The notes below the pieces were generated by a model. The model worked only from the letters and a program-made list of their open reading frames with translations, searched no databases and was not told the DNA's origin. From positions 186,001 to 250,000 of the forward strand of contig NZ_CP064791.1 of assembly GCF_017094465.1 (NCBI RefSeq): a DNA stretch of 64,000 bases. Reading direction: 5' to 3'. Shown piece after piece: positions 4,351 to 40,394 of the stretch (positions are counted from its first letter, which is position 1; every line of letters starts with the position of its first letter). Both the position numbers and the translations under genes were made by a program. The DNA is from Halapricum desulfuricans (GTDB lineage Archaea; Halobacteriota; Halobacteria; Halobacteriales; Haloarculaceae).

Positions 4351-4410
4351 TCTGAAATCCTTACTCGGCTGTTCCATTCGAGAGCCGCTGTCACGTTGCG
4401 CCAAATCAAC

Positions 4411-4420
4411 ATATAAATAG
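4411..4420 (+). promoter_or_regulatory. TATA element before the small Dnd-linked gene
   Basis: ATATAAATAG sits about 25-30 nt upstream of the ATG at 4442, the usual archaeal spacing for a leaderless transcript. It suggests the small gene, the DndD-like gene and the following gene can be transcribed separately from the helicase. Confidence 0.6.
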
Positions 4421-4441
4421 ATGCGGAAACCAGTACGAGTG

Positions 4442-4600
4442 ATGACTGGTGTTTCGGACGAAGAGGTTTCCATTACGCGGGACAAGCTCGTCAAGGTCAG
4501 AGAACGCGTCCTTGAAGCCGAAAAGGAAAAACTGCATCTCGACCTTGCTCGGGGTATCAACGACGAAATTGAGCAGATAATCCGAGAAGAAATCAACTGA
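4442..4600 (+). CDS. Small DNA-modification-system-associated protein (52 aa)
   Basis: This encodes 52 residues, highly charged and predicted mostly helical, ending in IIREEIN. Its TGA overlaps the next ATG by one base (TGATG), so it is almost certainly translationally coupled to the DndD-like gene. A strong TATA box at leaderless distance supports it as real. Small proteins of this size annotated as DNA modification system-associated occur at haloarchaeal dnd loci; I assign it there by context and general resemblance, not by a motif. A role as a bridging or regulatory subunit of the ATPase is inference. Confidence 0.7.
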   Translation: MTGVSDEEVSITRDKLVKVRERVLEAEKEKLHLDLARGINDEIEQIIREEIN

Positions 4601-6630: not shown

Positions 6631-6632
6631 TT

Positions 6633-7115: not shown

Positions 7116-7158
7116 TCCTTCATTTTTCGGCGATCACATCCCGGGAACAACGATACAC

Positions 7159-7167
7159 ATTTAAACA
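7159..7167 (+). promoter_or_regulatory. TATA element
   Basis: ATTTAAACA lies 24-32 nt upstream of the ATG at 7191, fitting a leaderless transcript that starts a separate unit after the Dnd-like operon. Confidence 0.55.
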
Positions 7168-7190
7168 ATTTCGTCTCCCTCGTATAATCG

Positions 7191-7859
7191 ATGGCAAGTG
7201 ACCGCCCACCAGTACACGATGCTCTCACTGTCCTCGATAACAAGAACTTCTACCGAAACGAGGAGTGGTGGAAATCTGTCGTCCGATATCAGTACGAGGG
7301 TTCCGACCAATCAGAACTCGCAATCTATCTCTGGCACAAGGATGACGGTGAATGGACGCGGAAGAATAAGTACGTCATCAAGACACCGGACGCGTGGGCC
7401 ACAGACAAAGCGATTGTCAACGCGATATTCTCGGAGTCACTGGCTGAGAGTGACGAAGAATTCCCCGTGAGTGACTACTATTCGGTGGGTACTGGCGAAA
7501 CAGTATTCAAATCGGATGGGTGGTGGAAAGCGATCGTCTTGATCGACCAGAAGGGGTCATACGAAACGCAGGAGGTCATGGTCTATCTCTGGCAGGAAAC
7601 TGATGACGGCTGGCGTCGCCGGCAAAAATATACGATCAAAGACGAAGACTCGTGGAAAGAAGAGGCGGGAGTCGTTGAATCGATGTTAGATATGGAAGCA
7701 TCGTCTACCGATCGTGGTTCGGCATCGAAGGAGACTACCCAAGGAGCCAGCGGGTCGCAATCGAAGAGTCCTGGTACTACTACCTCTCTGCCAAAAGCGG
7801 ATGAGTTCGAACAGCTTAGCCGGGAGATTGAAGATCATCTGAGCGTTCAGGGTAAGTAA
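7191..7859 (+). CDS. Uncharacterised protein with a duplicated Trp-rich domain
   Basis: 222 residues, no recognised family. Two tandem copies of a roughly 55-residue unit are visible: residues about 19-72 and 104-158. Each has an EWW/GWWK start, a VYLW or IYLWH strand, a DDGEW or DDGWR turn, a KYVIK or KYTIK strand and a final DAW or DSW. Spacing of Trp and Tyr suggests a small beta-rich fold, possibly a ligand- or nucleic-acid-binding module. The last 50 residues are Ser/Gly/Thr-rich and probably disordered, ending in a short charged helix. It lies in the low-GC island between the Dnd-like operon and another unusual gene, so defence or regulation is plausible but unproven. Confidence 0.72.
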   Translation: MASDRPPVHDALTVLDNKNFYRNEEWWKSVVRYQYEGSDQSELAIYLWHKDDGEWTRKNKYVIKTPDAWATDKAIVNAIFSESLAESDEEFPVSDYYSVGTGETVFKSDGWWKAIVLIDQKGSYETQEVMVYLWQETDDGWRRRQKYTIKDEDSWKEEAGVVESMLDMEASSTDRGSASKETTQGASGSQSKSPGTTTSLPKADEFEQLSREIEDHLSVQGK

Positions 7860-8009
7860 TCTGTATATATTCTACCCAATATTTGATGAATTAACTCTGG
7901 TGTCTTCTGTATCTTAGTTAACCTTTGATATACATTGAACGACCAACCAGTAGTAGAAGCCCAGCTGTGTCACGAAACGGTATTCCTGTTGTTGATGCTG
8001 TGATCCGAT

Positions 8010-9695
8010 ATGAATGAGGATAAAGCTGAAATCGACTTGATAGAGCCTCCTACCGTCGTTTCTGAAGTTGATAAGGATAAATTCCTGTTCTATCTCGCTG
8101 GTCAAGTACCAGTCGCAGTGAGTCAGTTTGCAGAGGACTGCACAGAAAGCGAGCCAGAAGTCAAAAACACTCTCAGCTCTCGCTTCCAGAACGAGATCAA
8201 GCTTGACCACACTGGTTTTCTCACGTTGACCGATGCAGCGAGGAGCAACATTCTGTCGTTCGCTAACCCACTCATCTCAGATGCTGTTGCTGCACAGAAG
8301 CGCGGGAAATCGATCGTAGAAGACGGGGACTACAAAGATGCGATAGAACACTACCGACATGCTGAATCACTATTTTCGGAAGCAGAAAGCCGTCTGGGAG
8401 CGGTTGGTGATGTTCCGGAGAAGTTGACTCGTCGCCTTGAGAGCGTCCGCGATACGCATGATAGTATCCAGAAGAAGGCAGTGAATGATGTTCTCACTCA
8501 TCGGAAGTTCGTTGGTGAGCAACACGAAGAGAAAGGCGATGATGCGATGCACAACAATGAGTTTGCCGAAGCTGTGGATGAGTTCGAAGATGCCGTGGAC
8601 GCCTTCAAGGAGGCGAAAGCAGCGGTTGAAAAATATCATTCGCAACTTCTCAGCCCTGATAGTTCGGGTCTTGATCAATCACCAATTGAGAGCCGGATCG
8701 ACGGATTAAGGCGAAAACTCGAAGCGGCGAAAGACAGAGTTGAGATCGACCTGGATCCAGATACATCGTCGTCGCAGAAAGAGGACAAGGCACAATCAGA
8801 GAATACCGAATCGCAGTCGGGTACTGAAGAAGAGAGTACCGAACTTTCTAATGCCGAAGCCGTGGCTGATAACGATTCTGCGGTCCCTTCTGCCGACAAT
8901 CAGTCCCGGGCTGAATTGATCTCAGAGTTGCAGGAGCTTGATCAAGAGTGGTCCAAGATAGACCGGAAATTGTTATACTCAATAAGTGATTATCACCCAG
9001 ACGACTTCGAAGAAGAGTTCGGGAGTGTAGATGCAGCACTCATCGAAGCTGGAGTGATAGACGAGCCTGGTGAAGACAAAGAAAGCGATAATCACTCTGA
9101 AAGCACTTCGGCGGAGACAGACGATGAGTTCGAACAGGCTCTCGTTGATGCGGGAGTGATAGACGAGCCTGGTGAAGGTAAAGAGACCGAAACGACTTCA
9201 CAGGAGTCGAATTCTACGGGTGATAGTCCCGATCCGGACGATTTCGCGGCAATTTCCGATATGCAGCCAAACAAGCGGTTCAGTGGGGAACTCGCAATTA
9301 AATTGGAAAGCGAATCGTATGCCGGCGCGAAGAAAGACGCAGCGTTTGAGGTAACCGACGCGTCCGGAGAAACTGTCCGGCTCGATTTCTGGTCGAAACA
9401 CGGGCTGGACATTCCGGAGTCAACCGGAACGTGGTACGTGATGAAGGAGCTTCGATTGCAGCAATGGGAAAAAGACGGGGAAACGAATCGAAATCTCTCG
9501 AGCAGTCGTGATACGCAGTGGCGGCAGATTGGCAATGACGACTCAACGGGCTCCCGGAATAGCGAGGATGATCAAGCAAAAGCAACTGGGACGGCTTCAC
9601 AGTCAGAATCAGCAACAGAAACTCAAGAAGCCTCTGATGAATCTGGTGGGATGCTTGGTTCGATCGTCTCCGAATTTGACGACGACCTCGTATAG
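8010..9695 (+). CDS. Multidomain protein: helical repeats, HNH-associated repeats, OB-like domain
   Basis: 561 residues. Residues 1-90 may be a winged helix. About 95-245 are paired amphipathic helices of TPR-like spacing (two units of KGDDA or RGKSI type followed by FAEAVDEFEDA and YKDAIEHYRHA). An acidic linker follows. Residues 296-347 match the homing-endonuclease-associated (HNH) repeat pattern: ELISELQEL, a Tyr/His core, then EEFGSVDAALIEAGVID. A shortened second copy ends at about 390 (FEQALVDAGVIDEPGE). Residues 405-510 look like an OB fold (VTDASGETVRLDFWSKHG, then WYVMKELRLQQW). No HNH nuclease motif is present. It may be a DNA-binding scaffold of the island; function unknown. Confidence 0.75.
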   Translation: MNEDKAEIDLIEPPTVVSEVDKDKFLFYLAGQVPVAVSQFAEDCTESEPEVKNTLSSRFQNEIKLDHTGFLTLTDAARSNILSFANPLISDAVAAQKRGKSIVEDGDYKDAIEHYRHAESLFSEAESRLGAVGDVPEKLTRRLESVRDTHDSIQKKAVNDVLTHRKFVGEQHEEKGDDAMHNNEFAEAVDEFEDAVDAFKEAKAAVEKYHSQLLSPDSSGLDQSPIESRIDGLRRKLEAAKDRVEIDLDPDTSSSQKEDKAQSENTESQSGTEEESTELSNAEAVADNDSAVPSADNQSRAELISELQELDQEWSKIDRKLLYSISDYHPDDFEEEFGSVDAALIEAGVIDEPGEDKESDNHSESTSAETDDEFEQALVDAGVIDEPGEGKETETTSQESNSTGDSPDPDDFAAISDMQPNKRFSGELAIKLESESYAGAKKDAAFEVTDASGETVRLDFWSKHGLDIPESTGTWYVMKELRLQQWEKDGETNRNLSSSRDTQWRQIGNDDSTGSRNSEDDQAKATGTASQSESATETQEASDESGGMLGSIVSEFDDDLV

Positions 9696-10022
9696 CAGCC
9701 TACGTAGTGGTTCACGATATCTTAGATCTTGAGGCGCGCGCCAGATTCACTAGCTTCGAGAAGGGCCAACGATCGCCTGAAAATATAGCTTCCACTCACC
9801 TTGCTACACTCGTCATCTGTATTCAGCGTCCGTTTGTATGCTTCCTCGACATTTTCAACAGACCCGGCCATCACAGAAGGCACGACGACAGCGGCCCGCA
9901 TCCATAGTATGGATGAACTCCAGAACCAACGAGTAATTCTGAACGCCCTCGAAATCAGAAAACAGCAGGTACAGACGCTGCGTGGCGCGAAACCGTTGGC
10001 TCATAATCGTGCATACTGTGGA
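9696..10022. other. Intergenic island edge, no convincing gene
   Basis: This stretch holds no recognised gene. One minus-strand frame of 59 codons (9722-9901) is open, but it has no recognisable motif or promoter and I do not call it. Base composition shifts here from the lower-GC island toward the tRNA-containing core. Confidence 0.5.
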
Positions 10023-10097
10023 TGGGCCCTGCCGGATTTGAACCAGCGCTCAATCGGTTATGAGCCGATCGCTTTAACCGGACTAAGCTAAGGGCCC
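10023..10097 (-). tRNA. tRNA-Ile2 or tRNA-Met (CAT anticodon)
   Basis: On the minus strand the 7-bp acceptor stem is GGGCCCT/AGGGCCC. The anticodon arm is ATCGG-CTCATAA-CCGAT and the T arm is GCTGG-TTCAAAT-CCGGC, with discriminator A. The anticodon is CAT. The GGGCCC acceptor start is more like archaeal tRNA-Ile2 (agmatidine-modified C34) than elongator Met, but I cannot settle that by eye. Its 3' end faces the accessory island. Confidence 0.88.
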
Positions 10098-10412
10098 TCG
10101 CTCGCGTTTTCTCGATGGGGCGACTAAACTGTACCGTCTTCTGCCGTTGGCCCTTGGGAGTTCTGAACGAACACGCCGTCCCGAGATCTGTTCGCTGTGA
10201 GTTTGACCGAACGAGAAGCCCCGTCCCGAGAACTGCGAGCAGTTCTCGTGGGCCGAAAAATCGCTCCGCGATTTGACGCCGCCGCCAGGACTCGAACCGA
10301 TGCAAGACGGTCCGGGTCGCTCGCTTACGCTCGCTTCCCGGACTGCGACTTCCGTGTCCGAGTCCTGCGAATCTCGTCCGCATCGCTCACCGTCTTGTTC
10401 GCGATAGAAGGA
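10098..10412. other. Inter-tRNA spacer with attachment-site scar
   Basis: This 315-nt spacer between two minus-strand tRNAs has no gene. It holds a copy of the tRNA-Asn 3' end at 10275-10298. It also holds short hairpins: CGAGAACTG/CAGTTCTCG around 10222-10246 and AAATCG/CGATTT around 10258-10274. It looks like the residue of one or more integration events. Confidence 0.55.
10275..10298 (-). repeat. 24-bp direct repeat of tRNA-Asn 3' end (att-like)
   Basis: Positions 10275-10298 repeat 10411-10434 exactly over 24 bp. The shared block is the T-loop, the 3' T stem and the 3' acceptor strand of tRNA-Asn plus two flanking bases. Upstream of the T-loop the copy stops matching, so it is not a second tRNA. 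Tyrosine-recombinase elements that integrate in tRNA 3' ends leave this kind of scar. Confidence 0.75.
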
Positions 10413-10485
10413 CGCCGCCGCCAGGACTCGAACCTGGGACAACCACGTTAACAGCGTGGTGCTCTACCATCTGAGCTACGGCGGC
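10413..10485 (-). tRNA. tRNA-Asn (GTT)
   Basis: On the minus strand the acceptor GCCGCCG pairs with CGGCGGC and the discriminator is G. The anticodon stem CACGC/GCGTG-type helix encloses TGTTAAC with anticodon GTT. The T arm is CCAGG-TTCGAGT-CCTGG. All arms pair well, so it is an intact gene. Its 3' half is duplicated at 10275-10298. Confidence 0.95.
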
Positions 10486-10583
10486 CCGTTGTTACACTCT
10501 CAGGTAGTTGGAGTTATTTGATAGGGCTTTCGCTTCGCCAGTGCATCGACACGCTTTCACGTACTTGCCGGCATCCTTCTGCT

Positions 10584-11984
10584 ATGAGCGACGAGTTCGA
10601 CGCCGTCGTCTCGACGGTTCGCGAGCGGGTCGAGCCCGACCGCGAGGAACGCCGGCGACTCCGGGATGCCGTCGCGGAGCTGACCGACCGCATCGAAGCC
10701 GCAATCGAGGAACTGCCTGTCGAAGCGGACGTGATCCAGGTCGGCTCGACAGCCCGCGGGACCTGGATCGCCGGCGATCGCGACGTGGACCTGTTCGTGC
10801 GCTTCCCGCCGGATCTCCCTCGTGAACAGCTCGAGGAGTACGGACTCCAGGTTGGACACGAAGTCCTGCCCGGCGGTCGTGAGGAATACGCCGAACACCC
10901 GTACGTCGTCGGCGAGTTTGCGGGATTCGACGTCGATCTCGTCCCCTGCTACGACGTGTCCGGCGCGACCGCGATCCAGTCGGCGGTCGATCGCACGCCG
11001 TTTCACACCGAGTACCTGACCGAACGACTCGACGCCGATCTCGCCAGCGAGGTCCGGGTCTGCAAGCAGTTTCTCACTGGTATCGGCGTCTACGGTAGCG
11101 ACCTGCGAACACGCGGGTTCTCGGGCTATCTGACCGAGCTGTTGATCCTCGAATACGGCGGTTTCCGGTCGTTCGTCGAGACTGCTGCGAACTGGCTCCC
11201 CCCTGTCGAGTTCGATCCCGAAGGTCACCGCGAGCGCGAGACGGCGTCGCCGTCCCGGGAGAGAGGCGGCGCTTCTGACCGCCCGTTCGACGATCCACTG
11301 GTGGTGATCGACCCAACCGATCCCGAGCGTAACGTGGCCGCGGTCTGCAGCGAAGAGAGTGTCGCCCGCCTCCAGCATTACGCCCGCGAACTGGTCGCCG
11401 ACCCCCGAGTCGAGCTCTTTGAGCAGTCCGAGCCGGAACCTGTCGATCCCGACACCGTTCTCGACGCGTTCGAGCGGCGAGGGACCACGCCCGCGACAGT
11501 CGGCTTCGAAACCCCGGATCTCGTCGAGGACGACCTCTATCCGCAACTGGAGAAGACCAGGGGCGGTATCGTCGGGCTGCTCGAACGCCACGGGTTCGAC
11601 ATCCTCCGATCGACGACTATCGCTGACGAGGATCGAGCGGTCGTTCTCGCGGAGCTTGCGGTCGCCGAACGGCCGGCCATCCAGCGCCACGAGGGGCCAC
11701 CGGTCCACGTCCGCGAACACGCCGAGAGCTTCTTCGAGCGATACGACGGGACGGCGGCTGCCGGACCGTTCCTCGATGGGGATCGCTACGTCGTCGAGCG
11801 CGAGCGCCAGTTCCGGACCGCCGCGGCGTTGCTCGAAAGCGACGAGCTCTTCGACGTGGGTCTCGGCACGACGATCGAGCGCCAGCTCCGGGAGTCGTAT
11901 ACCGTCCGCGTCGGCTCGGATGTCGCGGTGCTGGCCGAACGATTCGGCACCGAGCTGGCGCAGTATCTTGATCCGGCACCCTGA
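10584..11984 (+). CDS. cca: CCA tRNA nucleotidyltransferase, archaeal class I
   Basis: 466 residues, normal for the archaeal enzyme that adds or repairs the 3' CCA of tRNAs using CTP and ATP. The nucleotidyltransferase signature is clear near residues 50-65 (GSTARGTWIAGDRDVDLFV), with the two metal-binding Asp residues and a third acidic residue in FAGFDVDLVP. The region KQFLTGIGVYGSDLRTRGFSGYLTELLI matches the central helical domain. I start at MSDEF (10584) because the longer frame adds 22 unlikely residues across the promoter. It stands next to the tRNA genes, but no shared transcript is evident because the tRNAs lie on the other strand. Confidence 0.95.
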   Translation: MSDEFDAVVSTVRERVEPDREERRRLRDAVAELTDRIEAAIEELPVEADVIQVGSTARGTWIAGDRDVDLFVRFPPDLPREQLEEYGLQVGHEVLPGGREEYAEHPYVVGEFAGFDVDLVPCYDVSGATAIQSAVDRTPFHTEYLTERLDADLASEVRVCKQFLTGIGVYGSDLRTRGFSGYLTELLILEYGGFRSFVETAANWLPPVEFDPEGHRERETASPSRERGGASDRPFDDPLVVIDPTDPERNVAAVCSEESVARLQHYARELVADPRVELFEQSEPEPVDPDTVLDAFERRGTTPATVGFETPDLVEDDLYPQLEKTRGGIVGLLERHGFDILRSTTIADEDRAVVLAELAVAERPAIQRHEGPPVHVREHAESFFERYDGTAAAGPFLDGDRYVVERERQFRTAAALLESDELFDVGLGTTIERQLRESYTVRVGSDVAVLAERFGTELAQYLDPAP

Positions 11985-11995
11985 CCACCCTCGAA

Positions 11996-13021
11996 TCAGT
12001 CGTCGTCAGAATCGATCGACGGGAATCCCTGCTCTTTGAGGTTCGCGATGACCGAGCGCCCGTTGTCGTTGACCGACCACTCACGTGTGGGTGGTTCGTG
12101 ACCGTCGAACACCTCGTGGACCATCTTGACGCCGTCCGAGAGTGTCTCCAGTCCGTAGCCCCCTTCGAGGACGAACCCCAGGCCTGCATCGATCTGCTCG
12201 GTCAGCTCCCACAGGAAGTCCGTCATCAGCCCGTACCCGTCTGTGGTGACGACCATGCGGGAGATCGGGTCGTGCTCGTGGGCGTCGAACCCGGCACTGA
12301 CCAACAACAGATCGGGATCGAACGCTTCCAGCGACGGGCCGACTACTTCTTCGAGTGCGGCCATGTACTCGGCGTCGCCACAGCCGGCCGGGAACGGGGC
12401 GTTCAGCGTGGTCAACTCGGCGTCGCCCTCGCCGGTCTCGCCGATGCCGCCGGTGCCGGGGTACAGTCCCTCTTCGTGAAACGACACGTAGAACACGTCT
12501 TCGCGGTCGTAGAACATGTCTTGCGTGCCGTTACCGTGGTGGACGTCCCAGTCCAGGATCGCCACGCGATCGGCCAGATCCCGATCGATGACGTGCTGGG
12601 CGGCGACTGCGGCGTTGTTGATGAAGCAAAACCCCATCGCGTCGTCCTCGACGGCGTGGTGGCCCGGTGGTCGACCGAGCGCGAACGGCACTTCGTTGCC
12701 GCTGGTACTGTCGAGCGCCGCTTTCGCGGCCCACTGAGCCAGTCCCGCGCTCGCCATCACGGCGTCCCAGGTCGCCTCGACGGCGACGGTGTCGGCGTCC
12801 CAGTTGCCGCCTCCCTCCTCGCAGAACTCGTGTACGTCGCTGACGTAGTCGGCGTCGTGGACGGTCGACACGTCGGACTCGGTGGCCGAGTCGGGCGCGA
12901 CGTATTCGACGTTGTCACACTCCGATAGCGTCTCTCGGATCGCCCGAAGGCGGTCGGGACTCTCCGGGTGGCGGGCGCCGGTGTCGTGTTCGAGGCAGAT
13001 CTCGCGGTAGCCAAACCTCAT
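11996..13021 (-). CDS. Histone deacetylase family (class II-like/AcuC) hydrolase
   Basis: 341 residues with the zinc deacetylase core: RPPGHHA near residue 122, ILDWDVHHGNGTQ near 155, SAGFDAHEHDP near 245 and a C-terminal LEGGYGLETL. The tandem His pair and the Asp/His/Asp zinc ligands are all present, so an active amidohydrolase is expected. Substrates in archaea are unsettled: acetylated proteins, acetylpolyamines or other acyl amides. Its ATG overlaps the stop of the histone gene by 4 nt (ATGA), so the two are probably translated together. It is the last gene of the rpa2-like/lipoprotein/histone run. Confidence 0.93.
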   Translation of the reverse strand: MRFGYREICLEHDTGARHPESPDRLRAIRETLSECDNVEYVAPDSATESDVSTVHDADYVSDVHEFCEEGGGNWDADTVAVEATWDAVMASAGLAQWAAKAALDSTSGNEVPFALGRPPGHHAVEDDAMGFCFINNAAVAAQHVIDRDLADRVAILDWDVHHGNGTQDMFYDREDVFYVSFHEEGLYPGTGGIGETGEGDAELTTLNAPFPAGCGDAEYMAALEEVVGPSLEAFDPDLLLVSAGFDAHEHDPISRMVVTTDGYGLMTDFLWELTEQIDAGLGFVLEGGYGLETLSDGVKMVHEVFDGHEPPTREWSVNDNGRSVIANLKEQGFPSIDSDDD

Positions 13022-28053: not shown

Positions 28054-29424
28054 ATGACGGATTCCGAGCCGATCCGCGTGGTCCACGTCGACAGCGATCC
28101 CGATTTCCTGGAGGTCGTCGCCGAGCATCTCGAATCCGAGAACGAGGCACTGGCCGTCGAGGGAGAGACCGATCCACAAGCCGCGCTGGATCGACTCGAT
28201 CGGACTTCGGTCGACTGTGTCCTCAGCGACCATCGCCCGGCCGGGATCGACGGGCTCGACTTCCTCGAACGCGTCCGCGAGCGCCACCCGGAGATGCCCT
28301 TCGTTCTCTATACCAGCCACGGGAGCGAGGAGATCGCCAGCGAGGCCATCTCGGCGGGTGTTACCGAGTATATGCAAAAGGAGACCGGCACCGACCAGTA
28401 CGCCGTCCTCGCGAACACGATCACCAACGCAGTCGAGCACACGCGCACGGAGGCGGCGCTGCAGGAAAGTCAACAGCGCTATCGGACCGTCGTCGAGCAG
28501 AGTCACGACGGGATTTTCATCTACCGAGACGGCACGTTCGAGTTCGTCAACGAGCGGTTCTGTGCGATCACTGGCTACGAGGAAGACACGCTGATCGGTA
28601 TGGACGTGTTCGAACTCATTCATCCGGACGACCGTGACCGGGTCCGGGAGATCAGCCGGCGACGACAGTCCGGGGAAGCCCCTCCACAGCAGTACGAGGC
28701 GCGGATCGTCACCGCCGACGGCGAGACGCGTGAGGCGTCGCTCAGCGTCCGGTCGACCACCTACGACGGCGAGCCCGCCGAGATCGGCTCGATCCGGGAC
28801 GTGACTGATCGGTATCGCAGCGCGGAACGGCTCGACGAGTTCGCCAGCATCGTCTCCCACGATCTGCGCAACCCGCTGAACGTCCTGTCTGGCCGACTGG
28901 ATCTCGCCCGCGAGACCGGCGACGAGACGCACTTCGATGCCCTCGAACGGTCGATCGACAAGATGGAAACCCTCTTGGAGGAGATGCGCGACCTCGCCAG
29001 AGCCGGGTTGCCGGTCCGGGAACCCGCCGTCGTCGACGTCGAGTCGACCGCCCGCGAGGCCGCGGAGACCACCGATCTGACGGTGACTACCGAGGCGGGT
29101 CTGCCGACGATCGAGGCCGACCGCGATCGACTCGAAGGCGCTCTCGTCGAGTGTTTCGAGAACGTCGCGGTCCACACCGACTGTGATTCGGTCCGGGTTC
29201 GACCGACCGAGGACGGCTTCGCTGTCGTCGACGACGGACCCGGAATCGAGGCGAGCGAGCGCGACCGCGTCTTCGAGGCGGGATACACGACCGACACCGA
29301 CCGGACCGGCTTCGGGCTGGCGATCGTCGAGTGGATCGCCGACGCTCACGGCTGGTCGGTCGCGGCCGAGGCATCGTCGTCGGGCGGGACGCGGATCGTG
29401 ATCTCGGACGTCGGTCGGACCTGA
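28054..29424 (+). CDS. Hybrid sensor: receiver, PAS and histidine kinase
   Basis: 456 residues. Residues 1-125 are a receiver domain with the phospho-acceptor Asp near 59 in VLSDHRPAG and a Lys near 110 (MQKETG). Residues 140-250 form a PAS domain (YRTVVEQSHDGIFIYRDG). A short HisKA has SHDLRNPLNV with the His near 268, and the HATPase_c runs from about 340 (N-like box ECFENVAVH, then VDDGPGIE and GFGLAIV). There is no membrane helix, so it is cytosolic. The receiver-first layout is common in haloarchaea; stimulus and output are unknown, and no partner regulator is adjacent. Confidence 0.92.
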   Translation: MTDSEPIRVVHVDSDPDFLEVVAEHLESENEALAVEGETDPQAALDRLDRTSVDCVLSDHRPAGIDGLDFLERVRERHPEMPFVLYTSHGSEEIASEAISAGVTEYMQKETGTDQYAVLANTITNAVEHTRTEAALQESQQRYRTVVEQSHDGIFIYRDGTFEFVNERFCAITGYEEDTLIGMDVFELIHPDDRDRVREISRRRQSGEAPPQQYEARIVTADGETREASLSVRSTTYDGEPAEIGSIRDVTDRYRSAERLDEFASIVSHDLRNPLNVLSGRLDLARETGDETHFDALERSIDKMETLLEEMRDLARAGLPVREPAVVDVESTAREAAETTDLTVTTEAGLPTIEADRDRLEGALVECFENVAVHTDCDSVRVRPTEDGFAVVDDGPGIEASERDRVFEAGYTTDTDRTGFGLAIVEWIADAHGWSVAAEASSSGGTRIVISDVGRT

Positions 29425-29514: not shown

Positions 29515-30432
29515 ATGATCGAGGCCCGCGACCTCCGCAAAGAGTACGGCGGCTTCTCGGCCGTCGAAGGGAGCACGTTTTCGGTCGATTCCGGGGAGGT
29601 GTTCGGCATCATCGGCCCGAACGGGGCCGGCAAGACGACGACGCTGAAGATGATCGCCGGGCTGATCGAACCCACGAGCGGCAGCGTCTCGGTCGCCGGC
29701 TACGAGGCCGGCGAAAGCGAGATGCGCCACCAGCTCGGCTTTCTCCCCGAGGAATCGCCGCTCTACGAGGAGATGACTCCCCGGACGTATCTACACTTCT
29801 TCGCCGATCTGTACGACGTCCCCGACGATGTCGCCGAACGGCGCATCCGCGAGACGCTGGACGAACTCGACTTGCAACACCGCGATCGCCAGATCGGGGA
29901 CATGTCCAAGGGGATGAAACGGAAGGTCGCGATCGCCCGGTCACTGATCAACGACCCGGACGTGTTGATCTACGACGAACCGGCCAGCGGGCTGGACCCG
30001 CTGACGACGAACTACATCATCGAATTCACCAGCCAGCTCGCCGCGGAGGGCAAGACGATCGTCTTCAGCGCGCACAACCTCTTTCACGTCGAGTCGATCT
30101 GCGACCGCGTGGCGATCATGAACGACGGGGCGATCGTCGCCCGCGGCGGCCTCGAGGAACTGCAGGCCGAATACGGCGAGACGGTCTATCACGTCCACAC
30201 GACCGTCGAAGTCCCCGACAGCGTCGCGACGAACGGCCGATACGTCCGAACCGTCGAGACGATGGCCGAGGTCGAGACCACCCGGGAGGCCGCCCAGGAG
30301 GCCGGCGGCTCGATCATCGACATCCGGACCGAAGAATCCAGCCTGGAGGAAGTCTTTCTTAATGTCGCTGACGGTCGTGACAGTCGCACACAGTCAAGCA
30401 CGCCTGCGGCCGATTCGAGTCCGGAGGTCTGA
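29515..30432 (+). CDS. ABC transporter ATP-binding protein (ABC-2 type)
   Basis: 305 residues from MIEARDLRK. Walker A GPNGAGKTTT is near residue 39, the signature is MSKGMKRKVAIARSL near 133, Walker B VLIYDEPASGLD near 153 and the switch His in FSAHNLFH near 188. The extended C-terminus ends in SSLEEVFLNVADG, the tail typical of NatA/CcmA-like exporters. It drives the two membrane proteins that follow within 2 nt and by overlap. A substrate (export of lipid, drug or polymer) cannot be told. Confidence 0.93.
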   Translation: MIEARDLRKEYGGFSAVEGSTFSVDSGEVFGIIGPNGAGKTTTLKMIAGLIEPTSGSVSVAGYEAGESEMRHQLGFLPEESPLYEEMTPRTYLHFFADLYDVPDDVAERRIRETLDELDLQHRDRQIGDMSKGMKRKVAIARSLINDPDVLIYDEPASGLDPLTTNYIIEFTSQLAAEGKTIVFSAHNLFHVESICDRVAIMNDGAIVARGGLEELQAEYGETVYHVHTTVEVPDSVATNGRYVRTVETMAEVETTREAAQEAGGSIIDIRTEESSLEEVFLNVADGRDSRTQSSTPAADSSPEV

Positions 30433-30434: not shown

Positions 30435-32330
30435 GTGCGACCGCGCAAGATCCTGCGGATCGCCCGCTGGGAGGTGACGAAAAACGCCGGCGGGATCGAC
30501 CGCAAGACTGCCGCCGTCGTCGCCGTGACGTTGCTCGTGCTAGGTGCGGCTGCACCGCTCGTCGTCGCGCAGGGCGGTGTCACGCTTGATGAAGGCTTCT
30601 ACCGCGTCGGCGTCGACGAAGAGAGTCCGCTGTACCCGGTCGTCGCGAGCGACTCGACGTTCGCGGTTCAGGATCCTGATGCGGAACTCGGTTCCGAGAT
30701 CGACCTGCGGATTCGCGGCACACAGGTGGTCGCCAGCAACTCACAGAAGGGACAGGCGGCCCTGGCGGAGTTGCGCAGTAGCGTCGACTCGTATAACGAC
30801 CGTGTCATGGCCGGGGAATCCAACCAGTCGGCCGCGTTCCCGGTCACGGTGACGCTCGAATACGCCGAACGGAATCTCACGACGACCGCCGAGACTGAAA
30901 CGCTCGACGGCGGGACAGTCGACGATGGCACATCTCCCGACAGTACAACGCCCGACGATGGCGGAAACGGGTCCGATGGGCGGAGCAGTGGTGGCGGGTC
31001 CGACGGAGCGAACGGCGATGGTTCCGATGGAGCGACTGACGGCGACGGCTCCGACGGCACGGCCGATGACGGATCCACGGGCGACGGTTCGGGAGGGGAC
31101 ATCGGCGGTATCGCCCGCGGTCTCACGGGTAGCGATGCGATGACGGGCACGCCGTCGGACATCTCGCCGCCGTTTCCCTTCCAGTCGCTGATCCTGGCGT
31201 TCCTGTTCGTCGTCCCGCTGAACTTCGTCATCCAGGCGTACGGATCGACGATGCTCAGCGAACGGCTCAACCGGCGGGGTGAACTCATGCTGGTGGCACC
31301 GGTTTCTCGCGGGGACATCATCGCCGGCAAGACCCTGCCGTACTTCCTCGGTGCGTTGCTGTTCGAGGGGCTGATCGCGGGCGCCGTTCTCTACCTGCAG
31401 CCCGATTCCGGCAGCGGACTGTACGCGCTGGCCGCGGTCGTGCCGCTCATCCTGCTCTTTCTCTCCGCGACGTTCCTCGGTGCGATGTTCGCCCGCTCGT
31501 TCAAGGAACTCACCTTCGTCACCGTCTCGATCACGGTCGGGCTGACGACCTACGCGTTCGTCCCGGCGATCTTCACCGACGTGACGCCGATCGCGCTCAT
31601 CTCGCCGCTGACAATCGTCGTCCGCGACATCCAGGGCGTCGGGATCGAGCCGCTATCGCTGTTGCTCTCGACGCTGCCACCGCTGTTCACTGCGGGATTG
31701 TTCTTCGTGCTCGGCGCGGGGCTGTACCGCGAGGAGGACATGTTCACCCAGCGGCCGATCCCGCTGAAGGTGCTCGATTCGCTCGCCGGCCGGATTCACC
31801 GCCGGCGCAGCGTCGCACTCGTCGTGATCTTGCTCATGCCGCTGGTCATCCTCTCGGAGCTGGTCGCCGTCGCCGCGGTCTACCCGATCTCGATGGGGTT
31901 GCCCCGGCCGATCTGGCTCGGGCTGATCCTGCTCTCGATCGTCGTGATCGAGGAACTCGCCAAGAGCCTGCCGATATATGCGGGATTCGTCCACAACCGC
32001 TATGACCGCTCGCTCCGCTCGGCGCTTGCCGTCGGGGCGATCGCTGGCTTCGGATTTTTCGTTGCCGAGAAGGGACTACTGCTCGTTCAGTTGCTTGGCG
32101 GGTTGCCAGAGGTCCAGCAGGCGGCGGTCGTCTCGGCCGGTCCGACAGCCGGCATCGGCCCGGCGGTTGGCCTGCTGTTGTTGCTCGCGCCGCTGGCACT
32201 GCACGTCGTCACGGCGGCGACCTCCGCAGTCGGGATGCGATCCGGCCGACAGGGCTACGCTATCGGGCTCACGGCCGCGATCGCGATTCACTTCGTCTAC
32301 AACTTCTCGGTGGTGATGCTCGTTGTTTGA
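30435..32330 (+). CDS. ABC-2 permease fused to a PrsW-like intramembrane protease domain
   Basis: 631 residues, GTG start 2 nt after the ATPase stop. The N-terminal TM helix is followed by about 115 extracytoplasmic residues. Next comes a Gly/Ser/Asp low-complexity linker (about 165-225) and a six-helix ABC-2 permease region (about 250-450, with SERLNRRGELMLVAPVSRGDIIAGK). The C-terminal third has PrsW-type motifs: EELAK near 506-510, FFVAE near 541-545 and HVVTAATSAVG near 589-599. PrsW proteins are membrane glutamic/metalloprotease-like enzymes related to CPBP proteases. The combination suggests an exporter with built-in protein processing; that is inference. Confidence 0.85.
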   Translation: MRPRKILRIARWEVTKNAGGIDRKTAAVVAVTLLVLGAAAPLVVAQGGVTLDEGFYRVGVDEESPLYPVVASDSTFAVQDPDAELGSEIDLRIRGTQVVASNSQKGQAALAELRSSVDSYNDRVMAGESNQSAAFPVTVTLEYAERNLTTTAETETLDGGTVDDGTSPDSTTPDDGGNGSDGRSSGGGSDGANGDGSDGATDGDGSDGTADDGSTGDGSGGDIGGIARGLTGSDAMTGTPSDISPPFPFQSLILAFLFVVPLNFVIQAYGSTMLSERLNRRGELMLVAPVSRGDIIAGKTLPYFLGALLFEGLIAGAVLYLQPDSGSGLYALAAVVPLILLFLSATFLGAMFARSFKELTFVTVSITVGLTTYAFVPAIFTDVTPIALISPLTIVVRDIQGVGIEPLSLLLSTLPPLFTAGLFFVLGAGLYREEDMFTQRPIPLKVLDSLAGRIHRRRSVALVVILLMPLVILSELVAVAAVYPISMGLPRPIWLGLILLSIVVIEELAKSLPIYAGFVHNRYDRSLRSALAVGAIAGFGFFVAEKGLLLVQLLGGLPEVQQAAVVSAGPTAGIGPAVGLLLLLAPLALHVVTAATSAVGMRSGRQGYAIGLTAAIAIHFVYNFSVVMLVV

Positions 32331-33372
32331 CGACGTTCGGATCGCCATCGCGCGACGCGATATCGCGAGTCTCTCCCGGGAGAAGACGATCGTTCTCGCG
32401 CTGGCGATCCAGGTCTTCATCGCCGCGTTCTCGTCGTTTCTGGTCGTTGGGCTCACCTCGCTGTACGATCCCGGCAGCGTCGAGTCCGGCGAACTCACCT
32501 TCGGTGTCTCCGGTGACACCCGCGACGAACTCGACGAAGCGGCACGGGAGGCCGGCGTCGAGATCGAACAGTACCCGACACAAGCGGCCGCGATGGACGC
32601 CTTCCAGCGTGGGGAGGTAGTCGGCGTCCTCGCTGCTGATGCCTCTGGAGAGCGGATCGCAGTGACAGCGACGGTTCCAGACGGGAGTATCCAGTCGACG
32701 CTCGCGGTCGTCAAAGCCAGGGACGTGCTCGAAGCGCTCGAACGCAACGAACGCACGGCCCGGGCAGCCTACCTGGAAACCGATCCCGTCCCGCTTCCGC
32801 CCGAGGCGGACGCTAGCTCGTACTTCGGGTTCACGTACACGGTGCTCGTCCCGCTGTTGTTGTTCCTGCCGCCGTTCATCAGCGGATCGGTCACCGTGGA
32901 CGTACTGACCGAGGAGATCGAACGCGGGACGCTGGAGTTGCTCCGGGTCGCACCGGTCTCGCTGACGGACATCTTCGACGGGAAGGCGCTCGGAATGGCG
33001 ATACTGGCCCCGCTGCAGGCGCTGCTGTGGATCGCGCTGTTGGCCGTCAACGGGATCGCCATCGAAAACGCCCTCCCGCTCGTCGTGCTGGTCTCGGCGG
33101 TCGCGCTGCTGGTCGTCGTGCTCGGGGCGGTGCTCGGGCTGACGCTCGGCCAGCGCCGGCAGGCCCAGCTGCTGTACTCGATTATCGCGCTGGGGCTGTT
33201 CGGCGCGGCCGCGCTCCTGCCGGAACACCCCGCGACCGTCGCCGCCAAGCTCGCCGTCGGGAGCCAGACGACCGCCACCACCGCGACGGTCCTCGGGCTC
33301 TCGGTGCTCGCTGTCGTGTCGTACGCCGCCACGCGCCGGTACGTTGGCTCGATCGACCCCGAGCGGTACTAG
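32323..33372 (+). CDS. ABC-2 type permease subunit
   Basis: 349 residues with a TTG start at 32323 that overlaps the preceding stop by 8 nt; an in-frame stop just upstream rules out a longer start, though a downstream start is possible. One N-terminal TM helix (residues 25-47) precedes a roughly 130-residue external domain. Five to six TM helices follow, with the ABC-2 feature EEIERGTLELLRVAPVS near 205-220. It forms the second half of the exporter with the preceding permease and ATPase. Confidence 0.88.
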   Translation: MFDDVRIAIARRDIASLSREKTIVLALAIQVFIAAFSSFLVVGLTSLYDPGSVESGELTFGVSGDTRDELDEAAREAGVEIEQYPTQAAAMDAFQRGEVVGVLAADASGERIAVTATVPDGSIQSTLAVVKARDVLEALERNERTARAAYLETDPVPLPPEADASSYFGFTYTVLVPLLLFLPPFISGSVTVDVLTEEIERGTLELLRVAPVSLTDIFDGKALGMAILAPLQALLWIALLAVNGIAIENALPLVVLVSAVALLVVVLGAVLGLTLGQRRQAQLLYSIIALGLFGAAALLPEHPATVAAKLAVGSQTTATTATVLGLSVLAVVSYAATRRYVGSIDPERY

Positions 33373-35809: not shown

Positions 35810-36123
35810 GTGAGCGAGCCTGCGAGCGAACGAGCAGGTCAGGAATTGAATCACCACGGTTTCAATCCCGCAGTTGATCCTTGATCTGCTTGATGAGGGC
35901 GGACCTTGCGAAGAAGTAGCTGAGAAACTGATCGACTCGTTCCACGGTGATGGAGAATAGTGAGGCAGTACTACGTCGACTAGGTCACAGAGCTTTCCGA
36001 ACAGGAACTACAATCCGTGTTCGACGTTGCGGAACAGCTGGTCTGCCTGTTTGGAGTCGATCCGTCGTTTGGATTCTAACTATAGCAATATATTTATAAG
36101 TGTTATTGGTATAGTTGGAATAT
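35810..36123. other. Spacer with decayed coding fragment and promoter of the next gene
   Basis: Most of this 314-nt spacer has no gene. At 35989-36081 one plus frame reads like the C-terminal end of a protein (ELSEQELQSVFDVAEQL onward, ending FGF and a stop), but it is blocked upstream by an in-frame TAG, so it is probably a gene remnant. TATTTATAA at 36091-36099 is a good TATA element about 25-33 nt before the ATG at 36124. Confidence 0.45.
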
Positions 36124-37776
36124 ATGAGGCGTATCGAGATCGAGGTACTGCAGGAGCTACGGACGAAGCCCCACTCCATCTCAGAACTAGCGGAACGGTT
36201 AGACAAGAACCAGGGATGGATTTCAGAGGTTGTCTCAGAACTGGCGGACAAGCACCTCGTCGAGAAAGACGGGCAGATAGCATACGCAGACACGTTTACG
36301 GCAAGACTACAGAACAGCCTCTCCGAGCGGTACAATCTAAAAGAATTACTTGTGGGGAAGAAGGAGGGTATCCTTCGTGAACTACACAGAGAGTCGCAGA
36401 CAGTATCTGAGCTTGAGAAGCAAGGATTTGCCTCCTCTACTGTGTATTCGGCACTGGATGATCTCCAAACACTGGGGGTAGTCACAAAGCAGGATGATGG
36501 CCGATACAGGGTCACCGATGAGACACTACAGCAGTATCTCACAGCGTCAAATACTGAAGGCACACACGGGGGAAAGTATGTGGCAGAAGAGGGGAAGATC
36601 GTGGTCGGCAGTAGAGGAGATGAGGCAGATGGTGAACCGACCGCTTTCTCCGCCTTCGAACGATACGGTGTTGAATACTATCCTGCTCAGGCGTATCGCT
36701 ACCAGAACGATTCCAGCCCAGGTATTGAGGAGGTTCTGATCCACGCCGTCAAAACCGCGGAAAACCGTAAACAGGCCACGATGGCCGTTGTCTTCTATCT
36801 CAAGCATCGATCGATATTGGAGTCCTCGGAACTGTGGAAACTCGCAAATAAATGGGATTGTGTCGAGGAGTGGGCCGATACCCTGGCATATGCGGACCAA
36901 CGCGACCCTAAGCACGGGGACCGGTTCCTTTCTTGGGATGAATTCACGTCGCTGGCTCAGGACTACGATGTCTTCCGCCGCGGATACCACCCGGAGGAAC
37001 GCCTTCAGGAAGGGCTTGAACAGCTGGGTGAAGCGCTCGATACGGAAGTCGATGCATACCTGCTGGGGGGCGGAAACTTGATTCTCCGAGGTTTAAAGGA
37101 TTCGACTAAGGACTTGGATATCGTCGTCGACGAAAGACAGTCGTTCCTGGAATTGGGTGAGGCACTCCGCGAGATAGGATACGAGGAGCGAACCGACTTG
37201 GAAGAAGCATACCAAGAACTCGACCCTGCAATCGTATTCGAGAAAGAAGGATCTCCGCGGTACGATATCTTCGTTGAAGCGGTGGCCGGCAAACTACAAC
37301 TAACGAAGGAGATGATGGACAGGGTCGACCAATCTTTTGAATACGGGAATCTGCGTATGCATCTGCTCTCCCTCACCGATATCTTCCTGTTCAAGTCTAT
37401 CACTGAACGAGAAGGCGACTTAGAGGACACAGCCCTGATCACACGTCAGGCCAGTTTAGACTGGAAAGCGATGCTCAAAGAGATCAAGAAGCAGGATAAA
37501 ATTGCAGGCCAATACTTTTCGTTTGCTGTCCTCGACACCATCGATATCCTGAAACAGCGCGAGAACATCGACCCGCCTATACATCAGAAACTGGTTTCAT
37601 ACTGTCTGGAAAAAGCATTGCTTGTCTCACTGGAAGAACCGAAAACGATCAAGGATCTCCGAGATGAACTCGATTTTCCCGACCACCGGATCTACAACAA
37701 ACTCCGGAAACTCGAAGAGGAAGGCCGGATCGAAGTAGACAGAGGAGGGACGCTCAACACGTATGCGATCAAGTAG
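36124..37776 (+). CDS. Winged-helix / nucleotidyltransferase-fold protein (accessory)
   Basis: 550 residues and AT-richer than its neighbours. An N-terminal winged helix (1-65, ISELAERLDKNQGWISEVV) and a second one (75-140, VSELEKQGFASSTVYSALDD) precede a middle helical region. Then comes a nucleotidyltransferase core near 310-335 (LLGGGNLILRGLKDSTKDLDIVVD, GGG...DxD pattern). A third winged helix closes the C-terminus (495-550). The GG and DxD motifs fit minimal NTases such as AbiEii/MenT-like toxins or DUF6036-type sensors, where the enzyme transfers nucleotides to tRNA or proteins. No antitoxin gene is adjacent, though a built-in HTH might regulate its own promoter. Location beside tRNA-Gly suggests horizontal transfer. 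Confidence 0.82.
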   Translation: MRRIEIEVLQELRTKPHSISELAERLDKNQGWISEVVSELADKHLVEKDGQIAYADTFTARLQNSLSERYNLKELLVGKKEGILRELHRESQTVSELEKQGFASSTVYSALDDLQTLGVVTKQDDGRYRVTDETLQQYLTASNTEGTHGGKYVAEEGKIVVGSRGDEADGEPTAFSAFERYGVEYYPAQAYRYQNDSSPGIEEVLIHAVKTAENRKQATMAVVFYLKHRSILESSELWKLANKWDCVEEWADTLAYADQRDPKHGDRFLSWDEFTSLAQDYDVFRRGYHPEERLQEGLEQLGEALDTEVDAYLLGGGNLILRGLKDSTKDLDIVVDERQSFLELGEALREIGYEERTDLEEAYQELDPAIVFEKEGSPRYDIFVEAVAGKLQLTKEMMDRVDQSFEYGNLRMHLLSLTDIFLFKSITEREGDLEDTALITRQASLDWKAMLKEIKKQDKIAGQYFSFAVLDTIDILKQRENIDPPIHQKLVSYCLEKALLVSLEEPKTIKDLRDELDFPDHRIYNKLRKLEEEGRIEVDRGGTLNTYAIK

Positions 37777-37810
37777 GCAACTCTGAGAGAGATCTACAGG
37801 CAGAGTAGGG

Positions 37811-38245
37811 CGAGTGCCTCGGGGTCATCCGGAAATCAAAGATTTCCGTGATCACGAGAATCGAAGATTCTCGGACGACTTGACCCCGAGGGTGAAGCCC
37901 GTCACCCGTGCAGTAATCCAAACAATTAATATAACAGAGATACTACGTGGTTGTAACGGTCAGAGAACACCCTCTAAAGGCGGAGTTGAAGACCTCAATT
38001 CCGCGCTGGCCGTGTCGCAGATTCGGAAACGTGGCCCCTCTCAACACGGTCCATTGGGCGTGAGACGGGGGTTTCAACGGGTCGAGTGGAGCGACCGACC
38101 TCCACGGACACACGCGGTGTGTTCGGGTGTTACTTCCAGCCGACCCCTTCACTGGGGAAGGTCGGAGGGAATTAAATTCCCTTGCCGGGCGCCGTGCCGA
38201 CCCTAAACAGGGAAGCCTCGGGGCTTGTCCCCGAGGTACTTCACT
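37811..38245. other. Structured non-coding element, transposon-end-like
   Basis: This region has no credible gene but is unusually rich in perfect hairpins. The left part (37817-37891) folds as an 11-bp outer stem (CCTCGGGGTCA/TGACCCCGAGG) enclosing two 8-bp hairpins, at 37830-37848 and 37855-37873. A 10-bp hairpin with one G-U lies at 37980-38004. The right end has an 8-bp hairpin CCTCGGGG/CCCCGAGG at 38216-38236. Both ends carry CCTCGGGG. This resembles a non-autonomous IS200/IS605-type element or a structured RNA. No TnpA or TnpB frame is present. Confidence 0.5.
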
Positions 38246-38249
38246 GGTT

Positions 38250-38272
38250 GAATCCTTGGTCCCAAAGGATTC
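38250..38272 (-). terminator. Hairpin after trpA, possible terminator
   Basis: GAATCCTT (38250-38257) pairs with AAGGATTC (38265-38272), an 8-bp stem with a 7-nt loop, 12 nt beyond the trpA stop. It could end trpCBA transcription or belong to the adjacent structured element. Confidence 0.35.
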
Positions 38273-38283
38273 GATAGCGCCGT

Positions 38284-39114
38284 TCACTCGCTTTCGACGG
38301 CCGCACCGACACCGCGCAACGCACCCGTCTTCAGCTCTCGCGCCTTCGCTTCGAGCTTCTCGGCGGTCTCGGCGACCGGTTCGTCGCGCTCGTGGCCCTC
38401 GGCGACGATGTCGACCAGCGCCGAGCCGACGATGACGCCGTCGGCACCGGCGCGAACGATCCGCTCGGCGTGCTCGCCGGTCTTGATCCCGAAGCCCACC
38501 GCCTTCGGGACGTCCCAGTCGCTGATACGCTCGAGCGTCTCGGCTGTCTGGTCGCTCACGTCCTCGCGAGCGCCCGTCACGCCCGTCCGGGCCTGGACGT
38601 AGACGTACCCGGAGACGCGCTCGCGCATGCTGTCGAGTCGGTCGTCGGTCGTCGTCGGCGCGACGATGAAGATCAGATCCAGGCCGAACTCGTCGCAGGC
38701 CTCTCTGAGCGGGTCGGCCTCCTCGGCGGGCAGATCGACGACGACGAACCCGGAGATTCCGACTTCAGCGGCGCGTTCGACGAACTTTCGGGGGCCGGCC
38801 TCGCTATCCCCGTACTGGAAGATGAGATTGTAGTAGGTCATACAGACGATCGGCACGTCCACGTCGACTTCCTCTACGAACTCGAAGTACCGCTCGGGCG
38901 TCATCCCCGCTTGCAGCGCCCGGACGATCGCGCTCTGGATGGTCGAGCCCTCGGCGATCGGCTCGGAGAAGGGCAGACCGAGTTCGATCACGTCAGCGCC
39001 GCCGCGTTCCAGCGCCCCGACGTACTCCAGCGAGGCCTCGTAGGAGGGATCGCCGGCGGCGAGATACGGGACGAAGGCCGGCTCCTCGGAGTCGAAGACC
39101 GCGTCGAGACTCAT
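38284..39114 (-). CDS. trpA: Tryptophan synthase alpha subunit
   Basis: 276 residues. A TIM barrel with the catalytic Glu in [11 protein letters not shown] near residue 43 and Asp in PYLAAGDPS near 23. The phosphate-binding [13 protein letters not shown] near 208 and [11 protein letters not shown] near 225 are present. It cleaves indole-3-glycerol phosphate to indole, passed to TrpB. Its ATG overlaps the trpB stop by 4 nt. A short Arg/Lys-rich region precedes the C-terminus. Confidence 0.97.
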
Positions 39115-40394
39115 TCGCGGTCACCCCGACTGCCGAGGCGTCCGGCACCCACCTGCTCGAAGACGCTCATATCGGGTGCGACGTCCAGATCTCGTTTTGC
39201 AGTCTCTTCGATGACGGTTTCGAGGTCCTTGTCGCCCCGTCCGGAGACGTTGACGATCGTGAGATCCCCCACTCTTTCGGGGTGTTCTTCGAGGAACGCG
39301 AACGCATGGGCCGTTTCCAGCGCGGGGATGATCCCCTCGTCCTGGGAGAGCCTGTGGAACGCCTCCAGCGCGGCGTCGTCGTCGACGTTGACCGGCGTCA
39401 CCCGACCTTCGTCGACCAGATGCGCCAGCTCGGGGCCGACGCCCGAGTAATCGAGTCCGGCTGACACCGAGTGCGATTCCATGATCTGGCCGTCGCCGTC
39501 CTGCAGGAGTTTCGTCCGCGCCCCGTGGAGGACACCCTCGTTTCCGGTGGACAGCGACGCCGAGTTCGGCGCGACGCCCTCCTCCTCGTCGACGGTCAGC
39601 GAGGACCCTCCCGCTTCCACTGCAAACAGGTCTACGTCCTCGTCGGAAACGAAGTGGTGGAACGCGCCCATCGTGTTCGAGCCGCCGCCCGCACACGCGA
39701 CGACGGAGTCCGGGAGGCGGCCCGCTTTCGCCTGGATCTGCTCGCGGGCTTCCTCGGAGATGACCGACTGGAAGTCCCGGACCATCGACGGGAACGGGTG
39801 CGGACCGACGATCGAGCCGATCACGTAGTGGGTGTCCTCGACGTTGGTCGCCCAGTCGCGCATCGTCTCGGAGATCGCTTCCTTGAGCGTGCCGCGGCCG
39901 ACGGTGACGGGATTGACCTCCGCGCCGTTGATCCGCATGCGGAAGACGTTGGGTCGCTGGCGGGCGATGTCGGTCTCGCCCATGTAGATCTCGCAGGGCA
40001 TGTCCAGGTAGGCGGCGGCCATCGCCGTCGCGGTACCGTGCTGTCCCGCGCCGGTCTCGGCGATGATCCGGTCTTTGCCCATGTACTTGGCGAGCAGGAC
40101 CTGTCCGAGCGCGTTGTTGAGCTTGTGTGCCCCGCCGTGTAGCAGGTCCTCGCGTTTGAGATAGACCTCCGTGTCGTAGCGTTCGCTGAGCCGGTCGGCC
40201 CGCTGCAGCGGGATGGGCCGACCGCCGAAGTCCGCCAGTCGCTCGCGGAACTCGTCCATAAACCCGTCCTCGTTGTCGAGAACGTATCGCCGGTAGGCGT
40301 CCGCCAGTTCCTCGATCGCCGGCATCAACACTTCGGGGACGTACTGGCCCCCGTACTGTCCGAAACTCCCGTCGGCTGGTTCGTCCGTACTCAT
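39111..40394 (-). CDS. trpB: Tryptophan synthase beta subunit
   Basis: 427 residues, PLP-dependent. The PLP Lys sits in [14 protein letters not shown] near residue 87, the phosphate loop is [15 protein letters not shown] near 235, and [12 protein letters not shown] is near 114. This is a TrpB1-type enzyme paired with TrpA, condensing indole with serine. It overlaps both neighbours by 4 nt in the order trpC-trpB-trpA. Confidence 0.97.

Follow-up and report, generated by a model that had tools for sequence, protein, structure and literature searches.

Does a haloarchaeal ABC exporter carry an intramembrane protease within one of its own permease chains, and if so, what might the two halves do together? 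The question is raised by a gene at 30435..32330 (+ strand, as are the operon genes and the parts of the protein described below) of the 64,000-nucleotide stretch of Halapricum desulfuricans DNA analysed here, referred to as the window. The gene starts with GTG and encodes a 631-aa protein, which we describe as an ABC-2/type-V permease joined to a PrsW-type intramembrane protease domain (the fusion). It is the middle member of a head-to-tail trio in a genome of 2.88 Mb. Upstream lies a DrrA/NatA-like ABC ATPase subunit (29515..30432; 306 aa; ABC_tran, E = 1.7e-30), with the Walker A motif GPNGAGKT at residue 34 and the signature SKGM at residue 131; an alternative upstream start of this frame at 29437 is unlikely. 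Downstream, a second ABC-2 permease (32323..33372; ABC2_membrane_3, E = 3.2e-20), the partner subunit, lacks a protease domain, and its gene shares 8 bases with the fusion gene. The closest named relative of the fusion, from Halapricum hydrolyticum, was 89% identical over residues 227-631.

The fusion was modelled from a 66-sequence alignment (mean pLDDT 79), as a single chain without partner subunits, in which a path shared by protease and exporter is not visible. From the model helices and the loop charges, the protein is predicted to have 11 TM helices in an N-in/C-out topology. Each cytosolic loop carries at least two K/R residues, and the outer loops carry 0 or 1, the large acidic extracellular domain excepted. 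The predicted order of segments is TM1 (residues 23-45; 30501..30569; a helix over exactly these residues in the model), the extracellular domain (residues 46-248; 30570..31178), TM2-TM6, a cytosolic hinge and TM7-TM11. The extracellular domain is acidic (38 D+E vs 9 K+R), with modelled strands and helices between residues 56 and 126 and pLDDT blocks of 80-96 over residues 51-130. It also contains a Gly/Asp/Ser linker (residues 161-236; 30915..31142; 24 G, 17 D and 11 S out of 76), which is predicted to be disordered from its composition and a pLDDT mostly below 50, and which had the highest mean entropy among six regions compared. A sequence-only reading of the gene had named this linker together with the permease region as preceding the protease motifs; it lies in the extracellular TM1-TM2 loop, ahead of the ABC-2 core and not between permease and protease. 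The junction itself is formed by the hinge, which begins YREEDMFTQRP (residues 431-458; 31725..31808; 7 K+R). Its residues Y431-D435, F437 and Q439 were identical in 110/110 rows from the class (window included) and not strictly conserved in sequences from outside it; in all counts, the class is Halobacteria and the phylum Halobacteriota.

In the window copy, ABC2_membrane_3 matched residues 250-381 at E = 4.2e-5, under the Pfam cut-off, and the same family matched 56/66 members at E<=1. The VIA-align comparison of residues 1-439 with solved structures gave ABCA7/ABCA4 at Z = 16.7 and NosY at Z = 15.7; the first 24 rows were all ABC transporters, followed by a MATE protein at 7.7. These matches therefore point to a type-V-like exporter half, with the downstream permease as the other half. 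The ABC-2 core, TM2-TM6, was placed by the same alignment at residues 249-430 (31179..31724). As in ABCA-/NosFY-type (type V) permeases, TM1 is followed by an extracellular domain and then by TM2-6, and on the modelled fold and this shared plan, residues 1-439 are half of an ABC-2/type-V exporter. ABCA transporters are lipid exporters. In contrast to the ABCA-/NosFY-type permeases, the fusion has five extra helices after TM6, outside the matched 1-439, which form the protease domain.

This domain, TM7-TM11 (residues 459-631; 31809..32327), was assigned as a PrsW-type glutamic intramembrane protease from profiles, model and conservation. We examined it in a joint alignment of 149 sequences, including the window copy and 40 sequences from outside the class; one further sequence, cut by a contig end (L097), was dropped. 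Not all 149 sequences are independent, as clustering reduces them to 136 groups at 95% identity and to 112 at 80%. Among the 40, L186 represents a partial frame, and its N-terminal columns are not to be trusted. Four motifs were found. Motif 1, EExxK, comprises E506, E507 and K510 (31950..31964; EELAK at 506-510 in the window copy), all present in 149/149 sequences. Motif 2, FxxxE followed by K, comprises F541, E545 and K546 (32055..32072; FFVAE at 541-545), with F and E in 149/149 and K in 147/149. Motif 3 is His590 (32202..32204; 149/149), which the window copy presents as H590-V-V-T593...G600. Motif 4, HxxY[N/D], comprises H619, Y622 and N623 (32289..32303), with H and Y in 149/149; the last position is N in 135 sequences and D in the other 14. 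All four lie mid-helix, in the confidently modelled helices 491-519, 527-554, 576-601 and 605-630. Clustering of the motif residues, the criterion set in the sequence-only reading, was approached indirectly through these helix positions and the fold match given below. The sequence-only reading had listed three ordered PrsW motifs: their order and the first two, EExxK and FxxxE, were confirmed, while the third proved to be HxxT rather than HxxxT, and the fourth, H619xxYN623, had been missed. Members of the PrsW family (PF13367; M82, PMC9263693) likewise have EExxK, FxxxE, a His on the next helix and HxxY[N/D] on the last, and FxxxE is present in the stand-alone haloarchaeal PrsW set. In the accessible text of PMC4602095, the PrsW motifs are given as EExxK, an extra His and HxxxD; the D form at position 623 matches the HxxxD given for Bacillus subtilis PrsW.

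The invariance of these residues stands out against the divergence of the domain. The alignment contained 19 invariant positions overall, and within residues 445-631 only 8/187 positions were invariant, namely E506, E507, K510, F541, E545, H590, H619 and Y622, all of them motif residues. The catalytic-type residues are thus much more strictly conserved than the rest of the domain, in which the 40 distant members were 23-44% identical to the window copy (median 27%). Because these eight residues are identical in 149/149 sequences and are the sole invariants of 445-631, the motif matches, on this sequence evidence, are not due to chance.

The homology to PrsW was also sought with profiles. The window copy gave no PrsW/PF13367 match in Pfam or NCBIfam scans, so the observation made in the sequence-only reading escapes the standard profiles. 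Among orthologues from 97 class genomes, PF13367 matched the C terminus of 39/72 at E<=1e-3 and of 36/72 above the curated cut-off, and a same-genus orthologue (G069) scored 26.2 bits vs a cut-off of 23.5. With the default filters of hmmscan, PF13367 was found in just 4/66 members at E<=1 (best 1.4e-9) and in 0/7 distant members. In profile-profile comparison (hhalign), the domain matched 27 stand-alone haloarchaeal PrsW proteins at E = 1.7e-7, and the wider 149-row alignment matched them at E = 2.5e-6 with the motifs aligned. The controls gave 0.61 for reversed PrsW and 0.32-0.68 for three column-shuffles; with the ABC core of the fusion in place of its protease domain, the E value against PrsW was 0.086. 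The A1 profile also picked up stand-alone PrsW genes; in G011, for example, its match (E = 9e-9) fell within the place matched by PF13367.

When the C-terminal domain was modelled alone, the pLDDT rose to 91. Its best solved match was APH-1 (5a63_C; 161 aligned residues, rmsd 4.5) at a VIA-align Z of 10.6; for helical bundles, a Z under about 13 can arise from a common helix arrangement alone, and we therefore regard this match as support rather than proof. The three top rows were all APH-1 (Z = 10.5-10.6), followed by Mce1-LucB at 7.9, and Rce1 (4cad_I) reached a Z of 5.2, within the noise range. Foldseek's own E value for the APH-1 match was 0.87, and Foldseek returned nothing at E<=0.001 for either the fusion or the C-terminal model; a sequence search of solved structures gave one chance-level match (E = 0.36), overlapping the linker. 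APH-1, a scaffold subunit of gamma-secretase, is taken here to share the fold of the domain, at an identity of 10%. The accessible text of PMC4602095 places PrsW and APH-1 in a single superfamily. The assignment of the C-terminal domain as a PrsW-type protease is well supported by these sequence and model comparisons, from which proteolytic activity would be expected. The proposal that an ABC-2 permease and a PrsW-type protease occupy one chain at 30435-32330 was thus upheld by the profile-profile match to PrsW, the APH-1 and ABCA fold matches and the motifs kept in 149/149 sequences.

Stand-alone PrsW proteins, such as B. subtilis PrsW and the haloarchaeal HVO_0408, differ from the fusion in having no ABC permease in front. 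They also differ after motif 2, where the fusion has K (FxxxEK, 147/149), whereas stand-alone haloarchaeal PrsW has N (26/26 matches, 27 sequences); judging from these sequences, the K looks diagnostic of the fused clade. The window genome also encodes a stand-alone PrsW (L001, G000:C1:2400457-2401032; PF13367, E = 1.1e-45), and a PF13367 match over the cut-off was present in 97/97 class genomes scanned, the sole one in G021 being the fusion. Membership in the CPBP/Rce1 family (PF02517) was considered because an NCBIfam model is named for an ABC/CPBP fusion (see below). It was rejected on motifs and profiles: the domain has EExxK and FxxxE in place of EExxxR, FxxxH and HxxxN. The window protein had no PF02517 match, nor was that family one of the 23 listed across 66 members. 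In hhalign, the fused domain matched 31 CPBP sequences at E = 0.013, with 33 columns aligned; the same 31 were matched by stand-alone PrsW at just 0.0035, so this comparison cannot resolve the superfamily level.

The fusion gene was found in 106/145 class genomes; since the other 39/145 gave no match, the operon is dispensable. Outside the class, 65/147 phylum genomes matched the full-length profile at E<=1e-3 (hand count). The match in one of these (G271) was rejected as an unrelated permease, and another genome (G252), first seen as a partial match, contained a full-length copy with the motifs. When the 106 class genomes were checked for full length, the listed pieces reached at least residue 627 in 105. 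In the remaining genome, G091 (L226, G091:C1:2503500-2509500), the frame leaves the fusion family at residue 419, the protease domain is gone and the partner permease lacks its first ~50 residues, which indicates that a segment spanning both genes is missing. We judge this to be a decayed operon, not a working protease-free form. A copy in G140 (L229, G140:C1:848000-853500) is spread over three frames with one in-frame TGA and is either decayed or mis-sequenced; the locus retains the ATPase and the partner permease. Halorussus salinisoli has a second, orphan copy (L041:4001-5935), with intact protease motifs and without an adjacent ATPase or second permease. Around this copy lie, as named by eye, a transposase-like gene and genes for repeat-rich proteins and for a rhomboid-like membrane protein (970-2616). 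The plasmid records contained one relative, annotated as 'ABC transporter permease subunit'.

Synteny was scored in the 104 of 109 class loci with enough flank. In 103/104, the fusion gene was immediately preceded by the ATPase and immediately followed, on the same strand, by the second permease. In loci from outside the class, the partner permease came next on the same strand in 40/40, and the ATPase was upstream in 34/40 (33 divergent, 1 on the same strand) and absent from the fetched stretch in 6. Over all loci pooled, the partner permease adjoined the fusion in 143/144 and the ATPase in 137/144. Beyond the three operon genes, no other neighbour was shared by more than 25/80 class loci or 5/40 outside loci, the neighbouring ORFs having been named by eye after selection with a crude rule, under which the fusion itself was picked up in 69/80 and 38/40. 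The commonest in the class was an SRPBCC-like ORF of ~145 aa on the opposite strand, ~1.8 kb upstream (25/80 loci, L032-L111). An ~80-aa zinc-finger-like protein occurred ~1.8 kb upstream of the fusion in 19/80 class loci (L032-L111), and an aldo/keto reductase in 16/80, or 36/109 by a looser count. The SRPBCC-like ORF and the zinc-finger-like protein may be chance neighbours or partners. As no neighbour is widely shared, the substrate is probably encoded elsewhere in the genome.

Fusions of this kind have a precedent. NCBIfam NF041647, 'ABC transporter permease subunit/CPBP intramembrane protease', combines, like the fusion, an ABC-2 permease with a glutamic protease over 636 positions; permease-like matches extend to ~410 and CPBP matches start from ~420. 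An exporter half joined to a glutamic intramembrane protease is therefore already known as a kind of protein. The protease of NF041647 is CPBP by name, whereas that of the fusion is of PrsW type, and what is new here is the PrsW version of such a fusion, in archaea. No match to NF041647 exceeded the equivalog cut-off of 435 bits in 196 phylum genomes. Weak matches occurred in 16/66 members (best 2.9e-5), the window fusion matched neither NF041647 nor any other NCBIfam model, and none of the seven distant members scanned had an NCBIfam match. Separate genes elsewhere in the phylum resemble the halves of NF041647: L166 the permease half (E = 6e-31) and L167-L172 the CPBP half (down to E = 1.7e-27). 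Neither Pfam nor NCBIfam gave a match naming a PrsW/ABC fusion, and no open-access paper among those listed described one; the accessible portions of reviews of haloarchaeal membrane proteases mention the PrsW protease and CAAX/CPBP enzymes, and no ABC fusion. The present domain adds a likely intramembrane protease to the haloarchaeal set.

Sequence comparison and modelling establish a fused architecture with PrsW homology and invariant catalytic-type residues, accompanied by conserved partner genes. A possible mechanism can be proposed on this basis. The three genes would form a heterodimeric ABC exporter consisting of the ATPase, permease A and permease B, with permease A bearing the PrsW-type glutamic protease domain behind its cytosolic C-terminal hinge. 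Fusion behind this hinge would position the protease in the membrane, next to the route of transport. There it would cut a transmembrane peptide within the bilayer, such as what remains of a signal peptide or a membrane anchor, and the ABCA-like exporter would use ATP to lift the hydrophobic fragment from the membrane, clearing the active site and possibly releasing the peptide. By analogy, such a cleave-and-clear machine would be a one-polypeptide counterpart of the pathway formed by the protease Eep/RseP and the exporter EcsAB, a reading to which we assign a probability of roughly 0.45. A fused protease whose catalytic-type residues are intact in 149/149 sequences fits such a cycle. Against the reading stand the orphan copy L041, which keeps its motifs with neither partner gene nearby, the dispensability of the operon, the missing PF13367 match of the window copy together with the few hmmscan matches, and the modest scores of the APH-1 match. 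Proteolytic activity, the nature of the substrate, the direction of transport and the coupling of cleavage to transport are what we infer, the coupling because the fusion is conserved and Eep/EcsAB provides a precedent; the sequence-only reading, which had proposed such coupling, is thus upheld in part.

Eep/RseP (a site-2 protease) and EcsAB/PptAB pair intramembrane proteolysis with ABC export in one peptide pathway, as proposed here; these are, in contrast to the fusion, separate bacterial proteins, and the analogy is functional only. Eep/RseP is a metalloprotease of another family than PrsW. According to the accessible text of the sources, linear peptides from lipoprotein signal sequences in Staphylococcus aureus require both Eep and EcsAB (PMC7157817), intramembrane proteolysis is inhibited in B. 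subtilis when Ecs is inactivated (PMC2996298), and work on polymorphic toxins raised the possibility that processing and extrusion go through PrsW itself (PMC3482391). Eep and EcsAB are joined by genetics; the protease and exporter studied here are physically fused, across an archaeal phylum. The proposal bears on how cells dispose of the peptides that intramembrane cleavage leaves behind in the bilayer, and as one dispensable operon with orthologues in culturable haloarchaea, the system is tractable. A bolder version, in which the Halobacteriota protein is a self-contained, ancient protease-exporter complex that cuts membrane peptides and pumps them out in one processive act, we consider doubtful. 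If true, it would represent a membrane-embedded analogue of protease-translocase machines with an origin separate from those of the ABC/CPBP fusions and Eep/EcsAB.

The main rival to the cleave-and-clear reading is a transporter-gated signalling protease, in which the ABC complex would sense envelope stress or a ligand and switch on the PrsW domain, transport being secondary. The cut would then fall on a membrane-tethered regulator, much as RsiW is cleaved by PrsW in B. subtilis. The NosY match of the permease half (Z = 15.7) agrees with this reading, since the ABC complex to which NosY belongs probably transmits force and does not export a solute. The accessible texts further describe the founding PrsW as a site-1 signalling protease (PMC4602095, PMC3482391) and bacterial PrsW domains as fused to sensory domains (PMC3482391). 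However, no widely shared regulator was present at the locus among 80 class and 40 outside loci, and the stand-alone PrsW found in the window genome and in almost every one of the 97 class genomes scanned could fill the signalling role. On balance we find this rival unlikely.

The resemblance of the exporter core to ABCA transporters would also suit a maturation or sorting enzyme of the myxosortase or Rce1 kind, which would remove N- or C-terminal anchors from envelope proteins while the exporter expelled the tag or inserted a lipid-linked product. MrtX, a myxosortase of the CPBP family, is reported to cleave MYXO-CTERM tags (PMC11980579, accessible text), but the motifs of the fusion are of PrsW and not CPBP type, and PGF-CTERM tags in Haloferax are, in the source text available, already processed by archaeosortase. 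In the general survey of neighbours, no protein bearing such a tag was noticed; this explanation appears quite improbable. The odds are slim for an ordinary exporter with a structural, non-proteolytic appendage comparable to APH-1 in gamma-secretase. APH-1 is indeed the best solved match of the domain, but the eight PrsW motif residues are invariant in 149/149 sequences while identity over the rest of the domain falls to a median of 27%. In a scaffold, retention of the two glutamates, the lysine and the two histidines would not be expected, which makes a scaffold unlikely. That the motifs arose by chance in a hydrophobic C-terminus could be argued from the window copy, which alone gave no significant PrsW match; the profile, control and conservation results contradict it, leaving a negligible probability.

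Two further observations concern the surroundings of the operon in the window. Just upstream, positions 28054-29424 encode a response-regulator/PAS/histidine-kinase protein (by eye). Because a homologue was found in just 15/109 loci, for which the flanks mostly covered only 1.5-4 kb, this protein probably stands outside the exporter-protease system. The G+C content was 51-58% at 1-12000 and 36001-40000 vs 64-68% elsewhere in the window, and this lower value suggests that the two parts are acquired islands. Positions 36115-37776 encode a winged-helix/nucleotidyltransferase-like protein, named by eye.
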